Source of the DNA: Halichondria panicea
Lineage: Eukaryota; Porifera; Demospongiae; Suberitida; Halichondriidae
Length of the DNA: 64,000 nucleotides
Direction of reading: 5' to 3'
Assembly: GCF_963675165.1 (NCBI RefSeq)
Contig: NC_087386.1
Location: 2,668,169-2,732,168 of the forward strand
Below the pieces are notes generated by a model. That model searched no databases, was not told where the DNA came from, and saw only the letters and a program-made list of their open reading frames with translations. The position numbers and the translations under genes were made by a program. Positions 17,557-58,456 of this stretch are shown piece by piece. The first letter of the stretch is position 1, and each line of letters starts with the position of its first letter.

Positions 17557-18585
17557 ATGGCAGCCGTGTGGAGCAGTATATCATGGATTCTGGACGTTTA
17601 TATCGCGTTTATTGTATCCTTTGTGGTGACCATAATATTCTTTATCGTCTTTGTAAATGTTTTATCCTGGCTTAGCACTAAAATGTTTATTATGGTGTGG
17701 GTACACAGGTTTCAAGAGTTGAGAATGCGATGGAAGGTTGTCACATGTTTGACTGCAGTTGGAGCATTGATTGTGCCTTTGTTTGTTAAAGTTTACGGTA
17801 TTGCATCTGATGAACCCGTTTTTGTATCAGAAGTCACTGACATTATTCCGTCGTCTATGTTGTTTTATCGGAAGTATACAAACATAGCGTTCAATGTGTA
17901 TGTTCTGAAGTTGCACATCAACAAGTTATTGTTGTACGGATCAATTGTATTATTCATCCCGTTGTTTTTGCTCATGATATTTTTTTTTCTCGACAAGGAG
18001 CAACGAGTCAATCAACAAGTCGATCAAGTCAATCAACAAGTTGACCATGAAGCCTCCCAAATAGACTTACGTCAGAGGTTGTCTATAGCCACACAAGTGC
18101 ACAATTTCCAGCAAAGGGAAATTAATGGATTGAAAACAGAATTGGCACTATTGAACTACAATTTCCAAGAAGCAAAAAAAGCCAAGAGTAAGCAACAACC
18201 GGTAAAGAAGAAACATGTGAAGCCGCCACCTTGTCCCCAATGTTCCAAGTCAGCAAATATTGTTACTGAGGAAAAAAGATATACAGAACTACAAAACAGG
18301 CATACTGAACTGATGAGAAGATATTACAAGCTAGACAATAAGTACAACGAACTTGCTAAGAGGTTACGTGATGAACAGGCTAGCCCTCCTCCCTTACCAG
18401 CATTTAAGCTTGGACTCAAAGGAGACGATGCATTGTGTGTAGTGTGTATGGAGAAGAAGAGACAGTTCATATTAAAGCCTTGTAACCACTACTGTGTGTG
18501 TAACGACTGTAAGAATTCACTTAAGAACAAGTGCCCACTTTGTAGGAAGCACATTCAGAAATATGAGAAGCTATTTGTTTCTTAA
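17557..18585 (+). CDS. Membrane-anchored RING-finger protein (C3HC4), single exon
   Basis: 342 residues. Hydrophobic segments lie near residues 9-40, 50-72 and 125-148, followed by a charged coiled-coil stretch (about 150-280). A C-terminal RING starts at Cys294 with CVVCMEKKRQ, KPCNHYCVCNDC and CPLCRKHI. This is the cIAP/MULAN-style compact RING that acts as an E3 ubiquitin ligase. The tail FVS ends the protein directly after the RING, a common arrangement in dimerising RINGs. Orientation suggests a cytosolic RING on an organelle or plasma membrane; substrates are unknown. It is tandem to the RING-less paralogue and convergent with the next RING gene. Confidence 0.8.
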   Translation: MAAVWSSISWILDVYIAFIVSFVVTIIFFIVFVNVLSWLSTKMFIMVWVHRFQELRMRWKVVTCLTAVGALIVPLFVKVYGIASDEPVFVSEVTDIIPSSMLFYRKYTNIAFNVYVLKLHINKLLLYGSIVLFIPLFLLMIFFFLDKEQRVNQQVDQVNQQVDHEASQIDLRQRLSIATQVHNFQQREINGLKTELALLNYNFQEAKKAKSKQQPVKKKHVKPPPCPQCSKSANIVTEEKRYTELQNRHTELMRRYYKLDNKYNELAKRLRDEQASPPPLPAFKLGLKGDDALCVVCMEKKRQFILKPCNHYCVCNDCKNSLKNKCPLCRKHIQKYEKLFVS

Positions 18586-18907: not shown

Positions 18908-19894
18908 TTAAACATGATAAATCTTTTCTGAACTTGAAATTCTTTGATTGCAGACGGGACAACAGTGCAGCTTGGGCAAACATGATCTACAGAGACAATA
19001 GTGTTTGCATGGCTTTAGCAGAACCTCGCGCTTCCTCTCGAAGCACACTACACACAAGTACTTATCCTTCTCTTCAGAAAGCTCTGCATTGAGTCTTGAC
19101 AATTCCTCTTTCAGACTAGTATCCACAACGTTTTTAGCAGATGATGATTCTGTTACGTCGGGCCTACTTGAATTGTTTCTATCCGTATCCGACATTCGTC
19201 TTCGCAATCTTCTAGCGACAGTTTCATTAGGGAGTTGTGGGTTAGGTGGGGCTCTAGTAGATCGTGGTGGTGTCTGTCTAGGCTGATTTTCTTGCTTGAT
19301 TAGTCTTACTATTCTTGGGATAAGTAGCTTCAGAAATAAAGAGAAACATGTCACCAGTGCTAAACCAATAGAAATGTAGACAACATTAATCATTAAAGTT
19401 TTCCATAATACCAGAGCATCGTAAAATGAGTTGAATTTCAGATTGTCACCAACTTTTGTGAAAAGTACATAAGCCTTTCCATACCCATCAACTTCTCGAG
19501 CAAATTGAAACATAGCTTTTGTACAGTCAAAAAGCAGCGAAAATGCAATGTTAAGTCCACCGTATACAAAGCTGAACAGTGTGTATACTCCTTCCCAGCC
19601 AATCAAACAAACCAATCGAGAAAAATCTGTGAAATGAGACCAGCCAAAAAGAAACAAACTGAAACACACGTCCAAAGCAGCAACCATTACAGTATATAGA
19701 TGTTCATTGGCAAATATAATCACATTGTAGACTGCAAACACCAGATTAGTAAATACTGAAAGCACCAAAAACTGAGAAATTTTGAGGAGCTGAAGGACTG
19801 TACTGAACAGGAGCTCCAGCGTGGGAACAACTAGTGAGAAGACTTGCTCAGTAATCCACAGGGTGGAGGAGATAGTAGCAAGCACTACATCCAT
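18908..19894 (-). CDS. Membrane-anchored RING-finger protein, single exon
   Basis: 328 residues from the ATG at 19894. About two thirds of the protein is hydrophobic, with several predicted membrane segments (AVYNVIIFANEH, MINVVYISIGLALVTCFSLF). A basic linker rich in Arg and Pro follows, then a RING starting at about Cys281 with CVVCFERKRE, KPCKHYCLCRSC and CPVCNQRI. The RING resembles that of the neighbour at 17557, but the membrane part differs in length. Predicted role is E3 ubiquitin ligase at a membrane. No function is shown by the sequence beyond that. Confidence 0.8.
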   Translation of the reverse strand: MDVVLATISSTLWITEQVFSLVVPTLELLFSTVLQLLKISQFLVLSVFTNLVFAVYNVIIFANEHLYTVMVAALDVCFSLFLFGWSHFTDFSRLVCLIGWEGVYTLFSFVYGGLNIAFSLLFDCTKAMFQFAREVDGYGKAYVLFTKVGDNLKFNSFYDALVLWKTLMINVVYISIGLALVTCFSLFLKLLIPRIVRLIKQENQPRQTPPRSTRAPPNPQLPNETVARRLRRRMSDTDRNNSSRPDVTESSSAKNVVDTSLKEELSRLNAELSEEKDKYLCVVCFERKREVLLKPCKHYCLCRSCLPKLHCCPVCNQRISSSEKIYHV

Positions 19895-20281
19895 ACCTTC
19901 TTGACTTTTAACAGAGAAACTACACTGTACGTACACAGTCTAGTACACGTATAGCACAGTCATATCATAGATTGACCCCAGGCCGATCCGTCTCTAATTG
20001 AACGCTAGGTCAACTTAGTTCTATTAACAAATAATCGGCATAGGACCAGACTCTGTGGGCGTGGCTTGTAGGATCCTGAATCACTGGATCAGTGCGCATG
20101 CGCACATTATGTTGCCGAGTCTTGAGGGGAGTGGAAGGCAATAACATTTTACTACCGGTATAGTGCACCATTGGCAAGTGTGGGTTTTATAGCACCACAT
20201 TATCCACATTGTCAAGAAAACACATTGAGGCGTAATGACATTCTAGCATGACACCAAAAATCAGACAGTTGAAGCAGTTCT

Positions 20282-21065
20282 TCAACTTGTATAAATCCTT
20301 TCTTTATGTTCTATTTTGGACCTGCAAATGGGGCATTCATCCAATTGTCGAACACATTCTTCACACAGAGCAAAATGGCTACAAGGTTTGATCAAAATTT
20401 CTTTTGGGTTGGTGAAACACACAACACAAATGTTGTCTGGAGGAGTTCTGATTCCCGAAGACAGTACAAGCCAGAGTCTATACAGAACAACAGTTATTAT
20501 CATCATGGTTACAAAAGGGTTAGTTACTGCTTGCAGAGGTGAAGGTAGTATCGCAATAAATATTTGTCCCAGTATTATTGCACATATCACTTCTGAGGCC
20601 ACCTGAGATGTGTTGCTCAGTCCAAATCGCTCCGCAATATGATTCCTAGGAAATCCAAACACAAAAGTGAAACTTGCAGTCACAAAAAAAGCCGGAAAAG
20701 CCAGTCTAAAGACAACGTGCGATGAAAAGTCCAGACAATAGATGAACCAAAGAATGACATACTTTAAAGCCACATTGAATAAAGAAAGTAGCACAAACAT
20801 GAGACCAAACACCCATGACAGAGCATAGATGAATAGTAGTATAAGCAACGGAGCAATTGAAGCTTGGAAGAGAAACAGGATTGTGTTGTGTCTTCTAATA
20901 AAAGCTGTGAGAGGACTGTTGTTGCAGTACGCCTTTATATCGTGGACATTTTCTAAACCTGCATGTAGTCAAACTGAATGTATGGCAAAAGTATAATGAA
21001 GGTGTAGTCTAGCCCTCACCTTTATTTCTTAGGTTTCTTAGACTTAGTCTTAGAGACTTGTCCAT
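20282..21065 (-). CDS. Membrane-anchored RING-finger protein, two exons
   Basis: Exons 21065-21020 and 20958-20282 give 240 residues. The first exon is short and basic (MDKSLRLSLRNLRN) and joins in phase at AAAG to the second exon. Four or so hydrophobic segments follow. The C-terminal RING at about Cys193 reads CVVCFTNPKE, KPCSHFALCEEC and CPICRSKI. It is the third intact member of the local RING cluster and the only one with a recognisable intron. The first exon was found by reading upstream for a donor and an ATG; its short length keeps some doubt. Confidence 0.75.
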
Positions 21066-32950: not shown

Positions 32951-34943
32951 ACACGAGATCAACTTTCACGAGATCAACTCCCACGAGATCCAATTCTTAC
33001 CAGATCAACTTTGCATGAGGTCAACTCTCAGTAGATCAACTCTCATAGAGTCAACTTTTCATAGAGTCAACTCAACTCCTGAAATCAACTGAGATCAACT
33101 CCAATTTTAAAATCCAGAAATTAACTATTTTTATAGGTGTTGTTGACCTTTCTTTTATAGCTAATTACTATAGTACATGTGCTAAATATTTTGTGCCAAA
33201 GGTTGACAGGTTGACAGGTTTTGACAGGTGATAAAAGGGCCACTAGAACTATCATGCACTCATTTGCAACATGATGGATCAACTCGTCAAGACAAACCGA
33301 GGAGGAAAGAACCTTCAATTTGAGGGGTATATTTATACAAAAATAAGAGATGGAACCGATTTTCAATTCTGGAGGTGCAAAAACCACAAGGCTGGTTGCC
33401 CAGCAAGAGCCACTTCAGAGGGTTTGAGTGTGGTTGTAAGGAATGAACATGATCACCCACCCAATCCAGCTGAGATCACCACTCAAGTTGCCATTGCGGG
33501 AATGAGGAAGAGGGCCAGAGATGAAAGTACCTCCATAAATGTGATCTACGATGATCAACTGGAGGTAATTAGCCAAGAACAGAACTCTGCTGATGTGCTG
33601 GCACAACTGCCTAGCCTTGAGTCTATCAGGTCCTCTCTGTACCGAGCTAGACACGAAGACACTCCCATCCTTCCGACCCTCAGAAGAGATGTCAGCCTCT
33701 CTACCAGATTCTCAAACACTCGAAGTGGGGAAGACTTCCTCCTGGTTGACGATGGAGATGATGACAAGATCATGATCTTTGCCACTGAAGAGAACCTCAG
33801 ACTCCTGTCTGATGCAGAGGCCTTTTACATTGATGGCATATTCTCAACATGCCCTTCACTGTTCTACCAGGTACATAATTATGTACATGAATATTTTCTT
33901 TTCTGCAGGTGTTTACAATCCATATTCTGCTCTATGGCCATACATTTCCAATGGTATATTGCCTTTTGCCTAACAAACAAAGACAGACATATAACAGAGT
34001 GTTCATGCTACTCAAAGATGCTGCTCTAGTTAAAGTTCCCGGTATCAGTTTTGATGTTGAAGTAGTTGTGAGTGATTTTGAGCTGGCCATGGTTCAGGCT
34101 TCTACAATGAGCTTTCCGAACTCATATCATCGTGGCTGTTATTATCACTTCATGCAAGCGATTTGGAGAAAGGTATATCTTATATAGCAATAATAACTCT
34201 ATTCTAACTCTATTTTCTATGCTCTATACAGGTTCAAGCCCTGGGGCTAGCCACAGAATACCGTCGCCCCAATGGGGAGTTGAAGGAATTCGTACAATTG
34301 ATGGCATATGTGGCATTTTGTCCACTGATATTTGTTAGAACAGCCTGGCTTTCCATCCAATAGGATGCTCCGAACATCCCAAGAGTTGACGAGCTAGTGG
34401 ATTATTTCACTACCACCTGGATCAATGGAAACTTTCCACCAATTCACTGGAACTACTTCAATCAACATCAGCCTAGAACCAACAACCATGTTGAGGGATG
34501 GTATTCTAGAATGAAAAAAGTTATAGGCAACCCTCACCCAAACATCTTCAAATGGATTGAACACATGCAGAGAGAGGAGGCAGTGACCAAAGCAAAGATT
34601 CAGAGCTACATGTCTGGAGCTACTGCTCGGCCACAGAGACGCCGAATGAAAGAGAAGGAAAAGAGGATTCAGACACTGTTTGACCAATTTAACACAGGAG
34701 GCATGACTCTTAATGCATATTTATCAGCCATCAAGCATCTTACTGGACTCTAATCTAATTTTTTTTTTTATTCACTTTTGTAATTCTAATTTCACTTTTT
34801 ATTAAATTCAAATTGTAATCGAGTTGATCCCATGAAGTTGATCATATGAAAAGTTGATTCTATGAGAGTTGATCTACTGAGAGTTGACCTCATGCAAAGT
34901 TGATCTGGTAAGAATTGATCTCGTGAAAGTTGATCTCGTGTGC
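32951..34943. mobile_element. MULE-type DNA transposon with repeat-built terminal inverted repeats
   Basis: Left arm about 32951-33110 and right arm about 34815-34943 are inverted copies. Both start ACACGAGATCAACTTTCACG and continue as degenerate repeats of AGATCAACT with spacers of 5 to 7 bases. The left arm has one extra unit. Between them is a FLYWCH/MULE transposase gene. The element splits the duplicated block: copy B joins TTATCATTGC to ATAATAGTA directly near 49915. I could not find a convincing 9-bp target duplication at the ends. Confidence 0.85.
33271..34753 (+). pseudogene. FLYWCH-MULE transposase with an in-frame stop
   Basis: Three exons, 33271-33870, 33909-34172 and 34232-34753, read through 462 codons including one in-frame TAG at 34361-34363. 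An N-terminal FLYWCH zinc finger (FEGYIYTK, FWRCKNHKAGCPAR, HDHPPNP) would bind DNA. The MULE DDE core follows: FYIDGIFSTCP with the first Asp, VVSDFELAM with the second acidic residue, the YHRGCYYHFMQAIWR block, and NHVEGWYSRMKK with the Glu. The stop lies between the second and third catalytic regions, so this copy is probably dead. Everything else is open, which suggests recent loss. Confidence 0.85.
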
Positions 34944-35104: not shown

Positions 35105-36112
35105 CTATAGATCTACACTGGTACTGTACAGCTTAGCAATCATGTCTGTGAACTGCCTCTCTCCACTCTGCTTCCAGGTGACGTACACAAATATTTCCTT
35201 TCCCTTGGTGTCGTCTATCACTGTGTAGCCAGCACTATTCACAGTTAAGTTTAATGTGGTATAGTTCATGTACTGCATCCCAACTTCAGGCATACTTATC
35301 AACGTGCCTGTTACATCGAAAAGTATTGGGGTCTCATCTTTGAGATTACAGTTCTCTACAAGGCAGAAATAGGTCAGTGTGGAAGCAAGTGCAGTAGCTG
35401 CTTTGCTGTCTCCCAGTAGCATTTGCTTGATCTGGCCACCATCAAGAGCTACATTCCAGCATGTGTCTAGCGGAGTAAGAGTAATTTTGTTCCAGTTAGC
35501 AGCCAGGAGGACTTGCATGCACCACGGACACATAAATATGTTGTACTCAACAGAGGGTGGCTTTGAACCATTATACCCTATGTAAATTGAGCCAGCCATC
35601 GCCTTTATTCTTGCTCTGGGCACGACCTCAGGGTAGCGCTGAATCAGAGATGGGAAATTAGTCATGGGACCAATGGCGATGATTTCAACAATTTCTCCAC
35701 TACTCTTTATGACTTCAGCCATCTTGGACACTCCGTCTGGAAACACCCCTCCCTTGTAAGTGGAGAGATCCTCCTCAGCCCCCCAGCCAATCAAACTCTG
35801 GTGTGTGTTGTTGCTGTTTTTGATCCCAATGCCAATTGGGACGTCATCTCGGCCTAGGAGCTTCATTAATTTGGCAATCACCTTTGCTCGAGCTGTGGTG
35901 TCTTGAGTACATGTTACTATCAGCTTGATGTCCAGCTCCTCGCTTTGAGCAGCATACACAATGGCAAAAGAGTCGTCAATGAATGATCCAATATCAGTGT
36001 CGATAATCACAGGGCGCTTAGAAGCCTGGGATTGTGTCAAACAGAATTGGCACTGGAAGACCTCAGCAATGAGTAGGATCATCACTGCACTCCTGCTTCC
36101 CTTCATGATCAT
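35105..36112 (-). CDS. Secreted inosine-uridine nucleoside hydrolase-like, single exon
   Basis: 335 residues in one exon. A hydrophobic N-terminus (AVMILLIAEVFQCQFCLTQS) looks like a signal peptide. The calcium-binding Asp cluster reads DTDIGSFIDDSFAI at residues 38-51, the arrangement typical of bacterial-type DTDIG-x-x-IDD hydrolases. IIAIGPMTN follows as the second family motif. The family hydrolyses the N-glycosidic bond of ribonucleosides. Lack of introns in an intron-rich neighbourhood, plus the secreted form, hints at transfer or retrocopy origin. The last half is duplicated as a broken copy at 49995-50412. It is divergent from the gene at 36281, 168 bp away. Confidence 0.85.
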   Translation of the reverse strand: MIMKGSRSAVMILLIAEVFQCQFCLTQSQASKRPVIIDTDIGSFIDDSFAIVYAAQSEELDIKLIVTCTQDTTARAKVIAKLMKLLGRDDVPIGIGIKNSNNTHQSLIGWGAEEDLSTYKGGVFPDGVSKMAEVIKSSGEIVEIIAIGPMTNFPSLIQRYPEVVPRARIKAMAGSIYIGYNGSKPPSVEYNIFMCPWCMQVLLAANWNKITLTPLDTCWNVALDGGQIKQMLLGDSKAATALASTLTYFCLVENCNLKDETPILFDVTGTLISMPEVGMQYMNYTTLNLTVNSAGYTVIDDTKGKEIFVYVTWKQSGERQFTDMIAKLYSTSVDL

Positions 36113-36280
36113 GAGTGGCTGAGCCCTGGCCCTTGGAAAGTCTCTCTATCTCACTTATTGCGGTCGGTAATCGACTATTAATTGGGGGAGGGGCTGGTGG
36201 GGAAGAATTTTGCTTTGACGTTTCTGCATCATCGACAAAAAAGTTGTGCCTGACTCTGGCCTGACCCCTACACTCTCTAA

Positions 36281-37489: not shown

Positions 37490-38006
37490 TCAGCCAGTCA
37501 GAAGTCCAAGCTTCTTCAGTTCTGCAACAAGGTCTTCTAGTGCATGCTCCCGAGCACCATCTTTACTTTTCCATCCTTTAGTCTTTACAGATATCGCTGC
37601 TTCTTCATCCCATGCTTCACCCTTGTACTGATACTCCCACTTATAGAACCCGCCTTTCACCTTGTAGTGTAGGGTTCTTCCCTGAATAGTTATTGTCCCA
37701 CTGCCTCCAGTCAACGTATAGAGCTGTTCTTTCAATTGGTCAACGGTGCTCAGTACTTTTCCAAGCTTTTCCGCTGTTTTCTGCATGAAAATTATCCCTT
37801 GAGTGAAGTAAATATATCTATGAGTGCATGAAGCTATCCAGTGTATATAATTTATACAGCTCATATAGGCCTACAGAACAATATACTGACAAACTATAGA
37901 GAATATATAATGCATACAAACTTACAATGAGATCTATAGCCTCTCCAGATGGTGATATCAAAAGCAGACAGAGCCCCATAAGGCCAAACACCAGTGCCAC
38001 TTTCAT
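37490..38006 (-). CDS. Small secreted protein, family not recognised
   Basis: Exons 38006-37926 and 37780-37490 give 123 residues. The first exon is a signal peptide (MKVALVFGLMGLCLLLISPS). The second encodes a charged domain: ITIQGRTLHYKVKGGFYKWE, then YKGEAWDEEAAISVKTKGW and DGAREHALEDLVAELKKLG. A strand-rich half followed by a helix is likely. The donor GTAAGT and acceptor CAG are clean. No cysteine is present in the mature part. I do not recognise it. Confidence 0.6.
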
Positions 38007-49994: not shown

Positions 49995-50412
49995 CTATAC
50001 ACTGCTACTGTACAGCTTAGCAATCATGTCTGTGAACTGCCTCTCTCCATGTTGCTTCCAGGTGACGTACACAAATGTTGCCTTTCCCTTGGTGTCGTCT
50101 ATCACTGTGTAGCCAGCACTATTCACAGTTAAGTTTAATGTGGTATAGTTCATGTACTGCTTCCCAACTTCAGGCATAGTTATCAACGTGCCTGTTACAT
50201 CGAAAAGTATCGGGGTCTCATCTTTGAGATTATATACAGTTCTCTACAAGGCAGAAATAGGTCAGTGTGGAAGCAAGTGCAGTAGCTGCTTTGCTGTCTC
50301 CCAGTAGCATTTGCTTGATCTGGCCACCATCAAGAGCTACATTCCAGCATGTGTCTAGCGGAGTAAGAGTGATTTTGTTCCAGTTAGCAGCCAGGAGGAC
50401 TTGCATGCACCA
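49995..50412 (-). pseudogene. Nucleoside hydrolase fragment, copy B
   Basis: This matches the last 140 or so codons of the hydrolase at 35105-36112. A short insertion (ATATAC at about 50231) breaks the frame. Homology stops at about 50412, just before the codons for MCPW of copy A, so the signal peptide and Asp cluster are missing. Confidence 0.85.
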
Positions 50413-51003
50413 TCTCAAGACCAAGCTGAATAATGAGAGGGTGTGTCTAGTCTTTCCCCCAAGACTGTGGAACCATAGATTGAATGGATTGGAAACGGAA
50501 GTAGCGTCACGTGACATTTTACATTGAATTTGCAGCATGGGTATACCAAGATAGTCCAGAGGGTCTACCAATGGATACTACTCAGTCCTACATGCTGTAT
50601 AGCAAACCTTTTTTTAAACCTCAAGTGACCTAATTGAACAGCTCAGCAGAACTTCAAAGGATAATCGCATTCATGATACTATGCCACACAATTCAATATC
50701 ATGCAACATTCACAAGTTGATAGCACGCTCCCTCCCAGATTGTTGTTGTAAAATTTACAACAATTTGACCGGTAAAGGGTTATGTGGCCATTATAAAGTT
50801 TGTGAGGTTGCTTGTGTGATGGAAATGATGTGGTCTATGTTGTGCTCGTGGTTTGTACATGCATGTCATTTGAGAAGATGAGATGAGGAGGTGAACAATG
50901 TTTTAACACACAATGACACACACCATAATTCATAATTATGTCCCCAAGCACCAACAAAAAACTTGGTGTTTGAGAGGAACAACAAGCTTGCCTAAGGGTG
51001 GTA

Positions 51004-51382
51004 CCGTATATCTTCTAATTTATCGGACAGCAAAAAATAATTATTTTGGAAATTGTCCGGGTATAATTGGAACAGATTTTTATAGAGTATGCGAAGTGTC
51101 CGGAATAATTAGAACAAGCAAGCAGCTGCATGCGAGCTAGCTAAGTTTAATAGAACAGGGTACGACTGAATAGTTCACTAGCTATCTAAAACTAGCTAAT
51201 CAAAGCTATCTAACTGCAGTACTGTAAGTCTAATACTTGCGGTCTATGAACAATAACTCAACTTTTCAAGGTATTGTCCGGATATTTAGAACAAATGTAA
51301 TATTAAAGTACTGGAGTGTCCGTTGTATTAGAACAACGAAAATTGCCCAAAAGAGTCTCCGATAAATTAGAAGATATTACGG
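51004..51382. mobile_element. TA-flanked MITE, inverted relative of 28295-28689
   Basis: It starts CCGTATATCTTCTAATTTAT after TA and ends TTAGAAGATATTACGG before TA. The interior is the reverse complement of the xylose isomerase intron element, with modest divergence. Confidence 0.8.
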
Positions 51383-51867
51383 TATACGTAAGAGTGCAAG
51401 TGGCAGACAATTCACCTGGTTTTGACCCTGACGTAATGACAAAAATCAGAGACATTTTCTAAAAATAGAACTGCCCATATTCATTTAGCCAATCGGATTG
51501 CAGTATTTATGACCGGAACTAGAGCATTTTAGGAGTATAAAAAGTCGCTATAACTCAGTAACTCGCTGTGTCTTCTTCGAGGGGGATCTTTTGCACACAC
51601 TACCTGTGCCAGCTCTACCGTCTCAGCCCAGCTCTATCGTCTCACTCTACCTTTACCTCTCAACAAAGCAGGTTCGTTTTTTTCGTATAAAGAGCAGTAG
51701 GAAAGCCTCAGTATCGACTGTTTGCGCATCCGCATGGCAAGCCGTGTGGTTCAAAAATAGAAAGCACAAAACGTACTGTTATTATGCCTAAAAACCTACG
51801 TGTTTTGGCTAAAAACGTACGTGTTTCATTTTACGCAATTTGCTTTTTGTGGAAGTCTCTCTGTCAC

Positions 51868-51902
51868 TAGCCTCGATTCTAGGCGGCCTTGAATCGAGGC
51901 TA
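51868..51902. mobile_element. 35-bp palindromic TAGCCTCGA element with 9-bp target duplication
   Basis: The unit begins TAGCCTCGATTC and ends GAATCGAGGCTA, with 11 bases between. CTCTGTCAC is found directly on each side (51859-51867 and 51903-51911). It has the same termini as the 1.09-kb element at 45154. Confidence 0.8.
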
Positions 51903-51915
51903 CTCTGTCACTTGC

Positions 51916-52450
51916 TAGACTCGCCAGCCAGCCCTTCCTCGGGGTAAGGGACTGGTGGATTGCCTATCTGAGAGTTGTGCCGGTGGAATTTTAATGAGTT
52001 GCATGACATCATGTATGTGGTTTGTAATATCTGATATGCGTGGGTTGCAAATAGCTTACAAATAAGCTCCCCTTGCTTAGTTTGTGGCAGAGAAACCAAG
52101 AAACATTGAGACTGGTGGTAGAAGGCTACTGTCAAGCCCTTTCCATCCCCAGACTGGAAAGATTTTCTCCATTGTAAGACAAGTGGTGCAAATCATACAT
52201 ACTCAATTGCAGCTTGATTGATAAGCTCTGCTTGGTCGCTTAATCTTGCACTAGCACAGTCTTGCCCATCCGTTATTATCATGCATTCTACCACAAAGAA
52301 ATTAACTAAGCAATACTGTGGGCGTAAGAATGTCACATGACATTGATACTGCACTCTGATTGGTCATTACCAGATTCAGGTAACTGCACAACTCTCAGAT
52401 AGGCAATCCACCAGCCCCTTACCCCGAGGAAGGGCTGGCTGGCGAGTCTA
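51916..52450. mobile_element. TAGACTCGCC-ended MITE with perfect 9-bp target duplication
   Basis: The inverted ends of about 60 bp start TAGACTCGCCAGCCAGCCC. GTCACTTGC flanks both sides (51907-51915 and 52451-52459). The body of 535 bp has no transposase. Duplication length suggests Mutator-like mobilisation. Confidence 0.88.
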
Positions 52451-52479
52451 GTCACTTGCTAGGTGTTTCAGATATAACC

Positions 52480-52536
52480 TAGCCTCGAGACCAGATTAAA
52501 ATATATTTTATTCAGCCTGGATTCGAGGCCATACTA
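52480..52536. mobile_element. 57-bp TAGCCTCGA-family palindrome
   Basis: It begins TAGCCTCGAGACCAG and its right side contains CTGGATTCGAGGC. GATATAACC occurs on both sides (52471-52479 and 52537-52545). Confidence 0.65.
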
Positions 52537-52780
52537 GATATAACCTGACACGTACGTTTATAATGAAACACGTACGTTTATAATAAAATACCTTACGTTG
52601 CAGGAAGACGTAGCGGTATAATGAAACACGTATGATTATAGAAAACACGTATGTTTAATAGGCAAAACATGTACGTTTTTAGGCATAATAACAGTACGTT
52701 TTGTGCTTTCTATTTTTGAACCACACGGCTTGCCATACATCTGCTCAATCACCCAAATTTGGGTGATCAAGATATCTCAC

Positions 52781-53982
52781 CATAGATTGAAAAGGAAGGG
52801 GATTGGAAACGACCAGGCCTCCCTGTGTAAATGGGTGTTTTGATTTTGCGATCGTGATTATTTTTATTATGCCTCGGTGCGCATGCGCAAGCGAGGTATA
52901 CGGTTGTGTGTCTGTGTGTGTGTGTGTGTAGACCGCTACAGCTGCTCAAGGATGAATCAAGTGCAAGTAAGAGTTTCTATAGGCTTCTAGTCATGTTTAC
53001 TTGGATTTTAATTCGTGGATTTGCAAAATAATGCTTCGTTCTCGAGTTATGCCTAGTTTTGCTTACTTGGAATGCTATTGCAGCCTTTTCAGAAGAGTCC
53101 GTAGCAAAACTTGTTCACCGAGTGTTACAACTCTACTTAGTAGTTAGCTCTGCACTAGAACGCTAGCTATTGGTAGCTGCAAGAGTGAGCAGAGAGCTGC
53201 AAGGCTCTGCTGACTTGCAGCCATTAATTTTAGACTTGAACTTTTGGCATCGATCGTTTTTAACAACAATCATGGTCGATCATTACCCACTATTCGGTTG
53301 ATTGCATGCAGCAAAATTCATCATAATCAATGTGTGTATAATAAAAGCTAGCTATTAGTAGTTTTATGTTATGTAGCTTTGGCACCTCCACCGAGGCATC
53401 AGCACCTGCGGTGCTTTCATTTTGACCGTACTCTGGTTGTATTTCAACTGTTTCTAGCTCTCCTATCCACTAGCGATCACCCAGAGGCTGGGAGGTTACT
53501 CTAGAGGGATCAGCAGGCATGTACGGCACCATGTGTTTTAATTGCGCAACGTGATGGGCATTGCGTGGAAGTGCTATATAGAATGGTTTCATGCCATGGA
53601 TAAGCTTTACTGTTCATAAACGTTTGCAGTATAGTCCTTCAAACTGCTTTAGTATACTTTTAGACACACCACGGGCCTTGACCTCTCACGGCTTCATAGT
53701 AAGGGCTATTCCTTCTTTTATAGCATTTATTTGTTTGGTGGTTGCGTTGCTTAGTCGACCTTTTAGAGCTATATTGTCTAGAATATTCAACATTAAATGT
53801 GATCAATTTCACCATTTCTATGTACAGCACATTGTATGGCAGCCAAGACAGGTAATGAGCATGCTGAGTATAAAATAATGCTGAGTATAAAATAATCCCT
53901 TTGTAGTTTTAGCCACGCCCTATAACGCGGAGTGTTTCACGCAAAAATCTTCGTTTCCAATCCCCTTCCTTTTCAATCTATG
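52781..53982. mobile_element. CATAGATTGA-ended element, 32-bp terminal inverted repeats
   Basis: The first and last 32 bases are exact inverted repeats except at the innermost base or so, starting CATAGATTGAAAAGGAAGGG. Flanks ATCTCAC and ATCTTAC are similar, which suggests an eroded target duplication. A half-end of the same type occurs at about 50464. The body holds no recognised protein; the frame at 53591-53878 has no family features. Confidence 0.75.
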
Positions 53983-54174
53983 ATCTTACTAGTAAATTAG
54001 TCAATACAATTACCGTAATTGATGTAATTACAGCGCCAGAAAAAATTATCTGAGTCGTCTTTTAGAACACAAAAAATTGCGTTCAGCCCAGCTGGCGCCT
54101 AAATTATGGTGGCGCTTATTTTTACAGCTAGTATAGAAGAAAATGGGCGTGGTCTAGCTCAGTTTTACTTGCTA

Positions 54175-54366
54175 CCGTATTCACCTGAATTACCGAGACA
54201 CTTCGGACTTACGTAATTTTTTTCACTCTATATTAAGGAACATGCCACACCCCTAAGTAGAGCCTCTACTAGAGGTTAAAGTATGTGAACTTTAACCTTC
54301 AGAAATTATTTGGTGTACTCTTTTTATTCGAGGGTACTCTTTTTAGTTCAGGTATGGAAAATATGG
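54175..54366. mobile_element. Probable TA-flanked MITE
   Basis: CCGTATTCACCTGAA at the left and the reverse complement of CCATATTTTCCATACCTGAA at the right are imperfect inverted ends flanked by TA. Weaker than the other MITEs. Confidence 0.4.
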
Positions 54367-54964
54367 TACTAGGTCATAATAATATGGAAGAGTATAGGTA
54401 CTCAGGCCAGCCTCAAACAAATTATTTGTGTACCTTAAACTGATAAGAGCACCCCCAAGTCTTTCTTTTTGATAGTCTACACTACAAAGTGTACCCCTGA
54501 ATATTTATTTTCTATACCAGTTGACAAAAAGAGTACCCCCAGATACAAATACCGTATGTACTCTAATTTTGGCACTGATATTGCGCCATACCTAACTGTG
54601 TTTGTGTAAACGGCCCAAGGTCTCTATGGGGTTTTGAGACCTGAAGGCAGCGAGGGTGCTACTAAGGGCCTGAGGGTCTCAAAACTCCATAGTGACTGTT
54701 GGACGAGGCCTATAACTGGTTTAGAATAGTGCTGAGCAAGCTAGGCTATATTAACACAAAGAAGACTGAAACCGAGAGTTTCTACAAGCCTCAAGCAATG
54801 TTAAAAAACTTTCTTGATGCACGGGCTAATAGCGTTGCTATAGTTAGCTAGTTTCAATTTTTCACAATGACATGCGTTTTTACGGAACGGGGCCTCTCAG
54901 CATGTAAATCTGTACACGTTAAATATAAGTTTACACTGCATGGTACATCTTCTCTACAGCTCTG

Positions 54965-56452
54965 ATGAGTGCCTCTGGCTCTGGATACCCTCCTCTAAAA
55001 CGGAGCAAAACAACATCCACAACATTGCCTGTAGTGTTGCCATCCTCAAGCACTGTGTCAAATGTGGTTTCTGTGTCAGAGTTTAATTTATTCACGGTAG
55101 CTGATACGTCTGAACAAAGAGGAATAGACACACCAATATACACTCTAGAAGAAATTGCTACGTACCTTAGTGTTGGCTATCAAAAAAACGTTACAAGTGA
55201 AGAACTGGCTTCCAAGTGCATTAAATCTTTTCTCGGAGACATGGATATAGAAGCCGAAGCCTTTCCCGGTATTGAAACTGAAGCTAACCGTGAAATGAGA
55301 CACTTAACACATGTGTGTGTGTCCACGACCTCAAGGCCGGACGTGATAGTGTATTCAAAAAAAAAAGATATAACCATAACATTCGTCGAAGTACAATCTT
55401 CGCCAATGAAAGACACAGAACGAAAAGCAACCTTTGTTGCAAAAGACTTTTTAAGGATGTTAAGATATGTAGATTCATCCATAACCACACTATCTGTGTT
55501 TTGTTTTCCCAAGCGTAAAGTCCAGCAATGTATAATTGAAATTGAAGTAAAGTGGGATAACTTCTACATTTTCACGAATTTAAAACGTTTTCCGAACTTG
55601 GAAGATGGTTTGAAAAGGCTAAAAGAAGTCGCTCTAAAACAATGTGACCACCCAGCACTTGAAAGGCCAGAGGAAAATATGATGACATTATCCCCCACCG
55701 ATTTAAATGCTTTTGGAGTTGGTTATGAGCAAATGTCTTCTGCTACACACATAGTTGTGACAAACAAACAAAATGTTATCAAACTTTTATATTGCGATTC
55801 TGAAGCCAGTTGTATTAAGGATTTGATCCATAATGTAGAATTCAAAGCTCTTTCAATGCAGAGATTCACGTTAAATGTTGACCCTGAACCCGAAGGCTAT
55901 GTTTATACGTATTTTCCGTACGGTTCTTTAAAACGAATTGATGCAAAAAAATGTTTAAAAGAACTACTTGCAAAAATAGCTGACGAATTACTGAAATTGC
56001 GCCGGATGAATATTTCTCATAATGACGTGAGATTGGAAAACATATGTTTTGATGAACAATTTAAGCCATGCTTAATCGATTTTGATCGTTGTTGCACTTT
56101 ACACAAATCGAGAGACAAATATTTCTCAGGAAATGGACTAAGTGGTTGTATGTACAATCTTTTTAACCCTGTATTCTCTCGTGTTCAATTGAAAGAGCCT
56201 GACGTTACCACCGATTTTATGCAGCTGGGCTGGATGGCTGCATTTATTTTGGATGATAATGTCGAAGCAAAAGATTATCATACTAGAGCATGGGAATTAA
56301 CTGCGGAGAAAGGTTGTGTACTAGTATCAGAAGAAATCAAACGAAATAAGTTTATACAGGAGTTAATAGTAAATAAAAAATTCGATCGAGACCTCCTAAG
56401 GACCTGTCTACCCGATGATATAAAAACTGTGAAAGACGTTATAAAGAGCTAG
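54965..56452 (+). CDS. PD-(D/E)XK nuclease-like plus protein-kinase-like fusion (Crinkler-type architecture)
   Basis: 495 residues in one exon. The N-terminal half resembles a restriction-endonuclease fold: acidic helix (EAEAFPGIETEANREMRH), then RPDVIVY with Asp126, then ITFVEVQSSP with Glu142 and Gln144, the PD...ExQ form of the active site. The C-terminal half resembles a divergent protein kinase: NVIKLLY (Lys273), then ISHNDVRLENICF (Asp354, Asn359) in the catalytic loop and LIDFDRCC (Asp374) in place of DFG. This nuclease-kinase pairing is the known layout of Crinkler-RHS-type proteins of oomycetes, fungi and some animals. It is intronless and AT-rich, in a repeat-filled stretch with no related neighbour. 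Whether it is an effector, a defence protein or transposon-derived cannot be told here. Confidence 0.75.
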   Translation: MSASGSGYPPLKRSKTTSTTLPVVLPSSSTVSNVVSVSEFNLFTVADTSEQRGIDTPIYTLEEIATYLSVGYQKNVTSEELASKCIKSFLGDMDIEAEAFPGIETEANREMRHLTHVCVSTTSRPDVIVYSKKKDITITFVEVQSSPMKDTERKATFVAKDFLRMLRYVDSSITTLSVFCFPKRKVQQCIIEIEVKWDNFYIFTNLKRFPNLEDGLKRLKEVALKQCDHPALERPEENMMTLSPTDLNAFGVGYEQMSSATHIVVTNKQNVIKLLYCDSEASCIKDLIHNVEFKALSMQRFTLNVDPEPEGYVYTYFPYGSLKRIDAKKCLKELLAKIADELLKLRRMNISHNDVRLENICFDEQFKPCLIDFDRCCTLHKSRDKYFSGNGLSGCMYNLFNPVFSRVQLKEPDVTTDFMQLGWMAAFILDDNVEAKDYHTRAWELTAEKGCVLVSEEIKRNKFIQELIVNKKFDRDLLRTCLPDDIKTVKDVIKS

Positions 56453-57260
56453 ACTCTGAATCTACTTGTCCTTATGTCAATATTTATTATTGTATTTTTA
56501 TTACATGCAATTATTATTATACAAGTGCAAAAAACATTTTGTGAAAAAATGGGGAAGAGTAGGGTTGGAAGAGCATGTGCACTGAAGTAACAAAAAGTTC
56601 GAAAACAAGATTGTGGGTTGGTATTGTTAGCAAAGCTTGCAATGTGACTTAGCTAGATAGAGCATGTTCTCAGTTTAACAGATAAGAAAGATATCACGGA
56701 CTGACTAAGCACATGGTCACAGTGACCTAAATACATGCAGTGCACTTGCAACAGAAAATTGCCAAACAGCAAAACCACCAGATATGAATTTCATTACCAA
56801 TAATAATTCTAAGCTCAGCTTGTACTTTTGTTACAATAGCAGAATCTCATTGAACAACTGCTTATTCCTAAAGGTGTACAGGTATGAGCAAATTGAATGT
56901 ACAAGCTGGGCCCGGGGGAATTTAAAAGCCCAAAAAGGTGCTCAGTCATACACCTCCATGTGATTATATAGATATAATCTCAGGGCACTCCTATTAGTAT
57001 CACTCATAGATACGTACAGAATGGCTACTTTGATATAGCATTCTTGAAAAGCCTTGAACATAGAAATACATTTCAAGAATGCTTGACTGACTGCATGTAC
57101 AGTGTACAAATGTCATGCATGTTAAATCGTTCTTGGGGGGGAGGGGGCATGCCTAGAGAGGTTCAATGGGTGTGTTTGCTGAAAAGTGGTTGTCATTTCA
57201 GTTGGCTCTATGCTTTCTACCTGTAATAAAGTCAAAGTACTCTTGGAAAAGTTCAGAGTA
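56453..57260. other. Intergenic, no gene seen
   Basis: AT-rich sequence after the nuclease-kinase gene. TTTATTATTG and similar A/T runs near 56480 may hold its polyadenylation signal, though no canonical AATAAA stands out. Confidence 0.3.
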
Positions 57261-58396: not shown

Positions 58397-58456
58397 GTAG
58401 CCTCGAATCCAGGCTGATTAAAATACGTATTTTAATCCGCCTGGATTCGAGGCTAC
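58397..58456. mobile_element. About 60-bp TAGCCTCGA-family palindrome
   Basis: It begins TAGCCTCGAATCCAGGCTG and ends CGCCTGGATTCGAGGCTA, with AAAATACGTATTTT at the centre. No clear flanking duplication. Confidence 0.6.

Follow-up and report, generated by a model that had tools for sequence, protein, structure and literature searches.

A small gene family in the sponge Halichondria panicea couples a kinase half to a putative nuclease half and shows an excess of amino-acid replacements between recent copies

In the Crinkler (CR) proteins, C-termini combining a restriction-endonuclease-type (REase) domain with a kinase make up about one sixth of all CR C-termini, as stated in a passage of PMC5289972 that reports Zhang et al. 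2016. The same passage, reporting others, describes the REase of these proteins as the presumed toxic part and the kinase as its regulator. A CR-type element from an animal is Tribolium Medea1, which consists of CR-NTPase8 plus CR-REase7 according to a section of PMC11342252. The gene described here, A1, and its relatives resemble the CR REase-kinase proteins in that an REase-type domain, putative in this case, is coupled to a C-terminal kinase. They differ from them in residing in an animal genome, in having no ubiquitin-like (Ubl)/Crinkler header that could be found, in an ExQ motif where ExK is usual, and in the replacement-driven divergence of their copies. With Tribolium Medea1, the family has in common the animal genome and a putative REase-type conflict gene; however, Medea1 contains an NTPase where the A1 family has a kinase, and the A1 family is not known to have a killing phenotype. 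Restriction-type nucleases (HSDR_N_2, BsuBI/PstI) gave a weak profile match across PD...ExQ, but the A1 family is eukaryotic and kinase-fused, and the matches lie under the curated cut-offs. The kinase half resembles bacterial anti-phage kinases in PADLOC (MkoA, PD-T4-6 and Stk2), with MkoA matching seven of eight members at a best E of 6.6e-9; this likeness is one of general kinase similarity, without a common architecture being apparent. Among the listed titles and abstract openings in the literature, no REase-kinase gene from sponges or other animals was found.

The initial annotation had described A1 as a Crinkler-type fusion. No match to the Pfam Crinkler header was obtained in the 495 aa of A1 up to E 10, and the Ubl domain with LXLFLAK, one of the CRN/CR headers, was not found; exon 1 of subfamily C comprises only about eight residues (by eye). 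PF20147 gave no match in the sponge's own genome and none in the control genomes either, so that its genome-wide absence carries little weight. The main exon of A1 thus has no Pfam Crinkler header, while a header on an upstream exon is still conceivable. In the strict sense, the designation as Crinkler effector was not borne out, as neither the protein nor the genome, by PF20147, yielded a header. Searches of IMG/VR, GTDB contigs and phages detected no relative; a plasmid collection contained two weak kinase-like matches (E 0.2–0.3). As the alignment-based scans among them were keyed on one short kinase motif, distant microbial or viral relatives could be missed. A microbial or viral origin was considered and set aside with these results.

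A1 lies at 54965–56452 on the plus strand of the window, the whole stretch of 64,000 nucleotides that was analysed, and its main exon is one open frame of 495 aa followed by the stop codon. The frame carries P125-D126, E142-V-Q144, H352-N-D354-V-R356-L-E-N359 and D372-F-D374, the residues that had been named at first reading. It had also been called intronless, which is true of the main exon; acceptor-like sequences in subfamilies A, B and C and an intron in subfamily C (by eye) speak against it for the gene as a whole. In A1, a 3' splice-acceptor-like ttctctacag at 54950–54959 is followed by ctctg just 5' of the ATG (54950–54964 in total, plus strand, by eye), which suggests an upstream exon that is perhaps non-coding. 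The acceptor-like sequence directly precedes the main exon in all three subfamilies A, B and C (by eye). Subfamily C has a readable first exon of about eight residues, which is joined in frame across an intron of about 100 bases (by eye). Upstream of B1 (L022, minus strand), tandem repeats are seen by eye of a small exon-plus-intron unit that encodes an N-terminal piece rich in Ser. Close to the N-terminus of A1, the translation contains a basic, NLS-like stretch PPLKRSK (54989–55009, plus strand, by eye). The GC content of A1 is 37.4% compared to 41.3% for the window and 38.7–46.5% for six nearby ORFs. The gene is indeed AT-richer than all six neighbours, as had been noted, but the bias is small.

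Other ORFs of the window were also inspected. Three of them, at 17557–18585 (plus strand), 18908–19939 (minus strand) and 20282–20968 (minus strand), form a small local family with a C-terminal RING finger (Pfam zf-C3HC4_3) and, by eye, hydrophobic N-terminal stretches. A nucleoside hydrolase is encoded at 35105–36145 (minus strand; IU_nuc_hydro, E 1.6e-28), and part of it is repeated 14 kb away in the ORF at 50230–50571 (minus strand). The ORF at 37490–37870 (minus strand) matched Anti-LPS factor/scygonadin below threshold (E 9.7e-5) and is a possible antimicrobial peptide gene. At 33247–34753 (plus strand), a FLYWCH zinc finger precedes an ORF that by eye resembles a transposase and may belong to a MULE-type element.

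Within the 131 Mb assembly of the sponge's own genome, the family comprises eight copies whose frames are largely open, which fall into four subfamilies (A–D), in addition to broken pieces. The animal nature of the assembly is borne out by Wnt exons, with 10 matches (best E 5e-54) as opposed to none in 14 control genomes. The A1 protein had 27 matches, itself included. A2 is located on the same contig as A1 (C10) at a distance of about 254 kb and is 95% identical. B1 (contig C9) and B2 (contig C8) show 35% protein identity to A1, and C1 (contig C6), C2 and C3 (both contig C11) show 30–34%. The distant member D1 lies on contig C6 about 3.5 kb from C1 and is 28% identical to A1. The remaining matches of A1 are fragments, several of them with stops. 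With C2 as the query 20 matches were obtained and with D1 18, in overlapping lists that added further broken pieces, and D2 on contig C3 is without a continuous frame. The C-terminus is shifted in A2, and the N-terminal region of C3 is shifted at a G-run, where an assembly error is also possible. In an alignment of the eight sequences, the members outside subfamily A are 26–35% identical to A1; P125, D126, K273, H352, D354, R356, E358, N359, D372 and D374 are nevertheless invariant in all eight. The paralogue count thus yielded seven further largely full-length copies, and the gene is not isolated. That the motifs are more than chance was confirmed by these relatives, because they retain the same residues.

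The kinase half (about residues 255–470; 55727–56374, plus strand, by profile and Pfam matches) is secure by profile. The profile built for this half from all eight members matched a ULK3 chain in the PDB with E 3.3e-8, and Pfam Pkinase was found in all eight members at E≤1 (best 2.5e-8), together with the invariant motif residues in good agreement with the kinase-like half proposed at the outset. On A1 itself, Kdo, APH and protein-kinase models of Pfam matched residues 328–383, all under their cut-offs. The hallmarks of protein kinases are present, namely the β3 lysine, HxD...N and D372, with DFD where DFG is expected. K273 (55781–55783, plus strand) was assigned as β3 lysine equivalent by motif position and is invariant in all eight members. 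The catalytic loop HNDVRLEN comprises residues 352–359 (56018–56041, plus strand), with its five invariant residues H352, D354, R356, E358 and N359. D372-F-D374 occupies the DFG position (56078–56086, plus strand), and D372, D374 and the next residue R375 do not vary among the eight. It is followed by the equivalent of the activation segment, residues 375–416 (56087–56212, plus strand), which is rich in replacements.

The N-terminal half is less clear. A putative PD-(D/E)XK nuclease core was placed at residues 78–183 (55196–55513, plus strand) on the basis of weak profiles and low-confidence models. Its motifs are P125-D126 (55337–55342, plus strand), invariant in all eight members, and E142-V-Q144 (55388–55396, plus strand) with Q where K is usual; E142 and Q144 are each found in seven of eight members, the exceptions being E142→Q in C1 and Q144→E in D1. 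HSDR_N_2 matched A1 residues 120–154 with E 0.0016 under its cut-off when the whole protein was scanned with Pfam. In whole-protein scans, HSDR_N_2 was found in two members and BsuBI_PstI_RE in one of the eight. In scans restricted to the nuclease halves, HSDR_N_2 was absent at E≤10 and BsuBI_PstI_RE was found in two of eight (best E 0.022; A1 E 0.033). Hef nuclease matched one member (E 0.046), as did mREase_IV (E 0.0018), the latter in whole proteins, where the half is not distinguished. Similar E-values were reached by unrelated families such as PlasmethDesatCarF (0.0011, one member), the Rol-3 propeller (0.034) and others. A profile of the nuclease halves had no credible match in the PDB.

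Two single-sequence AlphaFold models were of low confidence with pLDDT 36 and 40. They contain a helix at 78–90, strands at 114–119, 126–131 and 136–142, a helix from 151 and a strand at 173–183. At this confidence, the predicted order α-β-β-β-α-β is the one expected of a PD-(D/E)XK core, with the motif at strand ends. Foldseek with the model of the nuclease half found nothing at E≤0.001, and its top matches were ribosome-hibernation factors. CidB, a cap-snatching endonuclease and a Holliday junction resolvase, chains which we take to have the nuclease fold, appeared at E 0.06–0.14 only. The odds for a nuclease fold are slightly lowered because HSDR_N_2 did not recur with the halves alone and unrelated families scored alike. 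From motifs, profiles and models together, a PD-(D/E)XK-type nuclease is still somewhat favoured for this half. The nuclease-like half of the initial annotation is thus weakly supported by its residues (PD in all members, E142 in all but one) and the weak profiles, not by the fold search, which gave no significant nuclease match. Of the separate checks proposed there, the profile search was successful for the kinase half; for the nuclease half, HSDR_N_2 was lost and Foldseek gave no significant match. C1 (L006, minus strand) has Q at the position of A1 residue 142, where the other seven members have the catalytic E. Because of this E142Q exchange at a putative catalytic residue, C1 is likely to be a nuclease-dead paralogue.

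The two halves differ in their divergence within the A pair. A1 and A2 have in common a block at 51358–56475 (plus strand, blastn) with indels, which stops 23 bases 3' of the A1 stop codon. They were compared up to residue 472, leaving out the residues beyond, which are shifted in A2. The nuclease half (residues 56–230) showed two replacement and five synonymous changes and the kinase half (231–472) 20 and three (Fisher p 0.007). Compared to neutrality, there was no excess of replacements in the frame up to 472 (25 to 8, p 0.49), and that in the kinase half alone was not significant (20 to 3, p 0.12). The kinase DNA is 3.2% diverged versus 1.5% in the upstream flank (p 0.027). A conserved nuclease and a variable kinase could be explained by a division of labour between toxic nuclease and regulating kinase as in the CR proteins. 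The older pair B1 and B2 has a dN/dS of 0.55. In their N-terminal pieces, 30.3 replacement and 4.7 synonymous changes were counted over 34 codons, a stretch where the alignment is uncertain.

The conserved nuclease half of the A pair also bears on a reading as an ordinary signalling kinase family, in which the N-terminal domain would be a non-catalytic REase-like or other domain. Strong homology is confined to the kinase half, the nuclease lysine is missing, C1 is without E142 and the nuclease is without fold support, all of which would fit such a family. On the other hand, PD is retained by all eight members and E142 by seven, although the other subfamilies are only 26–35% identical to A1. 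This reading is considered unlikely.

In subfamily C, three near-identical copies at three dispersed places were compared over main exon and flanks. The upstream flank, first exon and intron included, had 0 differences in 399 bases between C1 and C2 and one in 348 for both C1/C3 and C2/C3. The downstream flank had 4/377 (C1/C2), 3/377 (C1/C3) and 1/400 (C2/C3). In the main exon, 42 of 1542 (C1/C2), 48 of 1386 (C1/C3) and 25 of 1392 bases (C2/C3) differed, which is significantly more than in the flanks (Fisher p 1e-4, 1e-5 and 0.002, respectively). Coding divergence was thus 1.8–3.5% versus 0.3–0.6% in the flanks, 5 to 7 times more. Of 462 codons common to C1–C3, 44 vary, and every one of these changes the amino acid; seven carry three different amino acids. 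The number of purely synonymous codons was 0 compared to a null mean of 13.2, and none of 20,000 simulations was as low. The result held when neighbouring variable codons were collapsed to 27 events (p 0.0006) and for the 18 singletons alone (p 0.007). The dN/dS values were 3.4 for C1/C2 and 3.9 for C1/C3, and C2/C3 differ by 25 replacement and 0 synonymous changes. Further C-like pieces showed a similar tendency in ten non-independent comparisons (three queries with three pieces each, dropping those below 80% identity). The ratio of replacement to purely synonymous codons was at most 36:3 in 224 codons (piece beside C3 versus C2), and the lowest ratio, 3:1 in 60 codons, is no more than neutral. 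The recent C copies thus carry an excess of replacements, as would be expected from an evolutionary arms race.

The replacements of A and C fall close together in the kinase half. Proximity of the sites was significant by permutation at three smoothing widths (p 0.011, 0.0013 and 0.0004) and by circular shift (p 0.017, 0.008 and 0.004). The overlap of exact codons was not significant (three sites, p 0.25), and a count within ±2 residues over the whole frame was not notable (8/17 versus a base rate of 32%). Parts rich in replacements in both subfamilies, chosen after the data had been seen, are located at about 277–283, 301–317 and 378–394 and correspond by motif position to the β3-αC loop, the pre-hinge region and the activation segment. 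In the latter, replacements are found at 380, 390, 393, 394 and 407 between A1 and A2 and from 378 to 398 among the C copies.

Host-defence or selfish-toxin genes tend to combine conserved catalytic motifs with copies that often duplicate and break and that, when recent, diverge by replacements only. From the replacement excess in subfamily C, a conflict role, be it defence or selfish toxin, is likely for the A1 family, in line with the immunity or genome conflict suggested at first. A selfish toxin of the Medea type with post-zygotic or germline killing would have the nuclease as toxin and paralogues with altered kinase or dead nuclease as antidotes. The fast diversification of near-identical copies and the probably nuclease-dead C1 (E142Q) beside copies that keep E would suit this, and part of PMC11342252 describes Tribolium Medea1 as CR-type with NTPase and REase. 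However, it is an NTPase and not a kinase that Medea1 contains, and a separate antidote gene is not known; among the ORFs listed for the A1 block, the sole other same-strand one of at least 80 aa has 95 aa and lies inside a MITE-like repeat. Such a toxin is clearly unlikely.

The MITE-like repeat is found 5' of A1, outside the gene, at 52781–53982 with perfect inverted ends of 32 bases (from the sequence). It matched 39 other places among the best 40 of 505 candidates, and the repeat-rich setting described for the locus is real. It is also present near B1, while 38 of the 39 other scored places have no match of the family (queries A1, C2 and D1) in their vicinity. Among the best 40 candidates, a repeat 3' of C1 and C2 had 37 further places at 93–99%, and another one, located 5' of the C copies in their flanking DNA, is dispersed without the gene. 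An inverted pair of 26 bases (52504–52529 and 58400–58425) spans A1. Its sequence recurs in the region as a palindrome at 58397–58456, and the pair is not the boundary of the duplicated unit because the A1/A2 block ends at 56475. C1–C3 start at one identical 24-base edge, which has four places in the genome (≤2 mismatches), all at C copies (L025, 2036; L026, 2708 and 2656; L024, minus strand); one of these is an inverted copy beside C3. In the DNA fetched around these copies, no inverted counterpart of this left edge is present at the opposite end, the right edges differ among C1, C2 and C3, and by eye no target-site duplications were seen at the shown C-copy edges.

A place of the gene within a transposable element, either as cargo or as one of its coding parts, could be read from the repeat-rich flanks, the common start of the C copies at an edge unique to them and the inverted pair around A1. 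Against it, the pair reaches beyond the right side of the A1/A2 block and recurs as a palindrome, the C edge is unpaired with unequal right edges, intact copies are few, introns are present and the repeats occur free of the gene. Moreover, replacement-only divergence is not expected of element copies. Bounding ends, target-site duplications and spread together with the gene were not found, and this origin is improbable. The mobile-element component offered by the initial annotation was rejected, given dispersed neighbouring repeats without the gene, few gene copies and introns seen by eye in two subfamilies. Both labels, "Crinkler effector" and "transposon component", are left unsupported, because no Crinkler header was found and the repeats occur without the gene. 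The dispersal of the C copies resembles segmental duplication more than transposition, with the repeated left edge and its inverted copy beside C3 staying odd. Relaxed selection or decaying pseudogenes, as might be thought from the shifted A2 C-terminus, the shifted N-terminal region of C3 and the many broken pieces, are very improbable, for relaxation predicts a neutral mix and equal divergence of the flanks, while the C copies have no purely synonymous codon against an expectation of about 13, and the divergence of their flanks is 5 to 7 times lower.

The A1 family is best read, with a probability of roughly 0.48, as an endogenous, intracellular conflict gene of the animal which combines a kinase with a PD-(D/E)XK-type nuclease, is headerless and diversifies fast. 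As such a conflict gene, it would be kept small and dispersed while it duplicates, breaks and diversifies fast. The nuclease half would act as the effector by cutting nucleic acid, possibly inside the nucleus, and the kinase half would gate it. The kinase half may at the same time form the surface in contact with a rapidly changing partner, which could be an antidote or a protein from a virus or mobile element. New amino acids at the β3-αC loop, the pre-hinge region and the activation segment might be favoured because the kinase meets this proposed partner. A more specific form, with the kinase half as polymorphic recognition surface (self/non-self, antidote or viral antagonist) over a nuclease effector and with nuclease-dead duplicates such as C1 (E142Q) turned into regulators or antidotes, is rather unlikely as far as can be judged from the sequences.

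With recent copies that differ almost only by replacements, the role of such animal genes becomes testable. The replacement-rich kinase surface may serve as a lead to the partner, and natural controls would be provided by comparing copies that keep the catalytic glutamate with those that have lost it.
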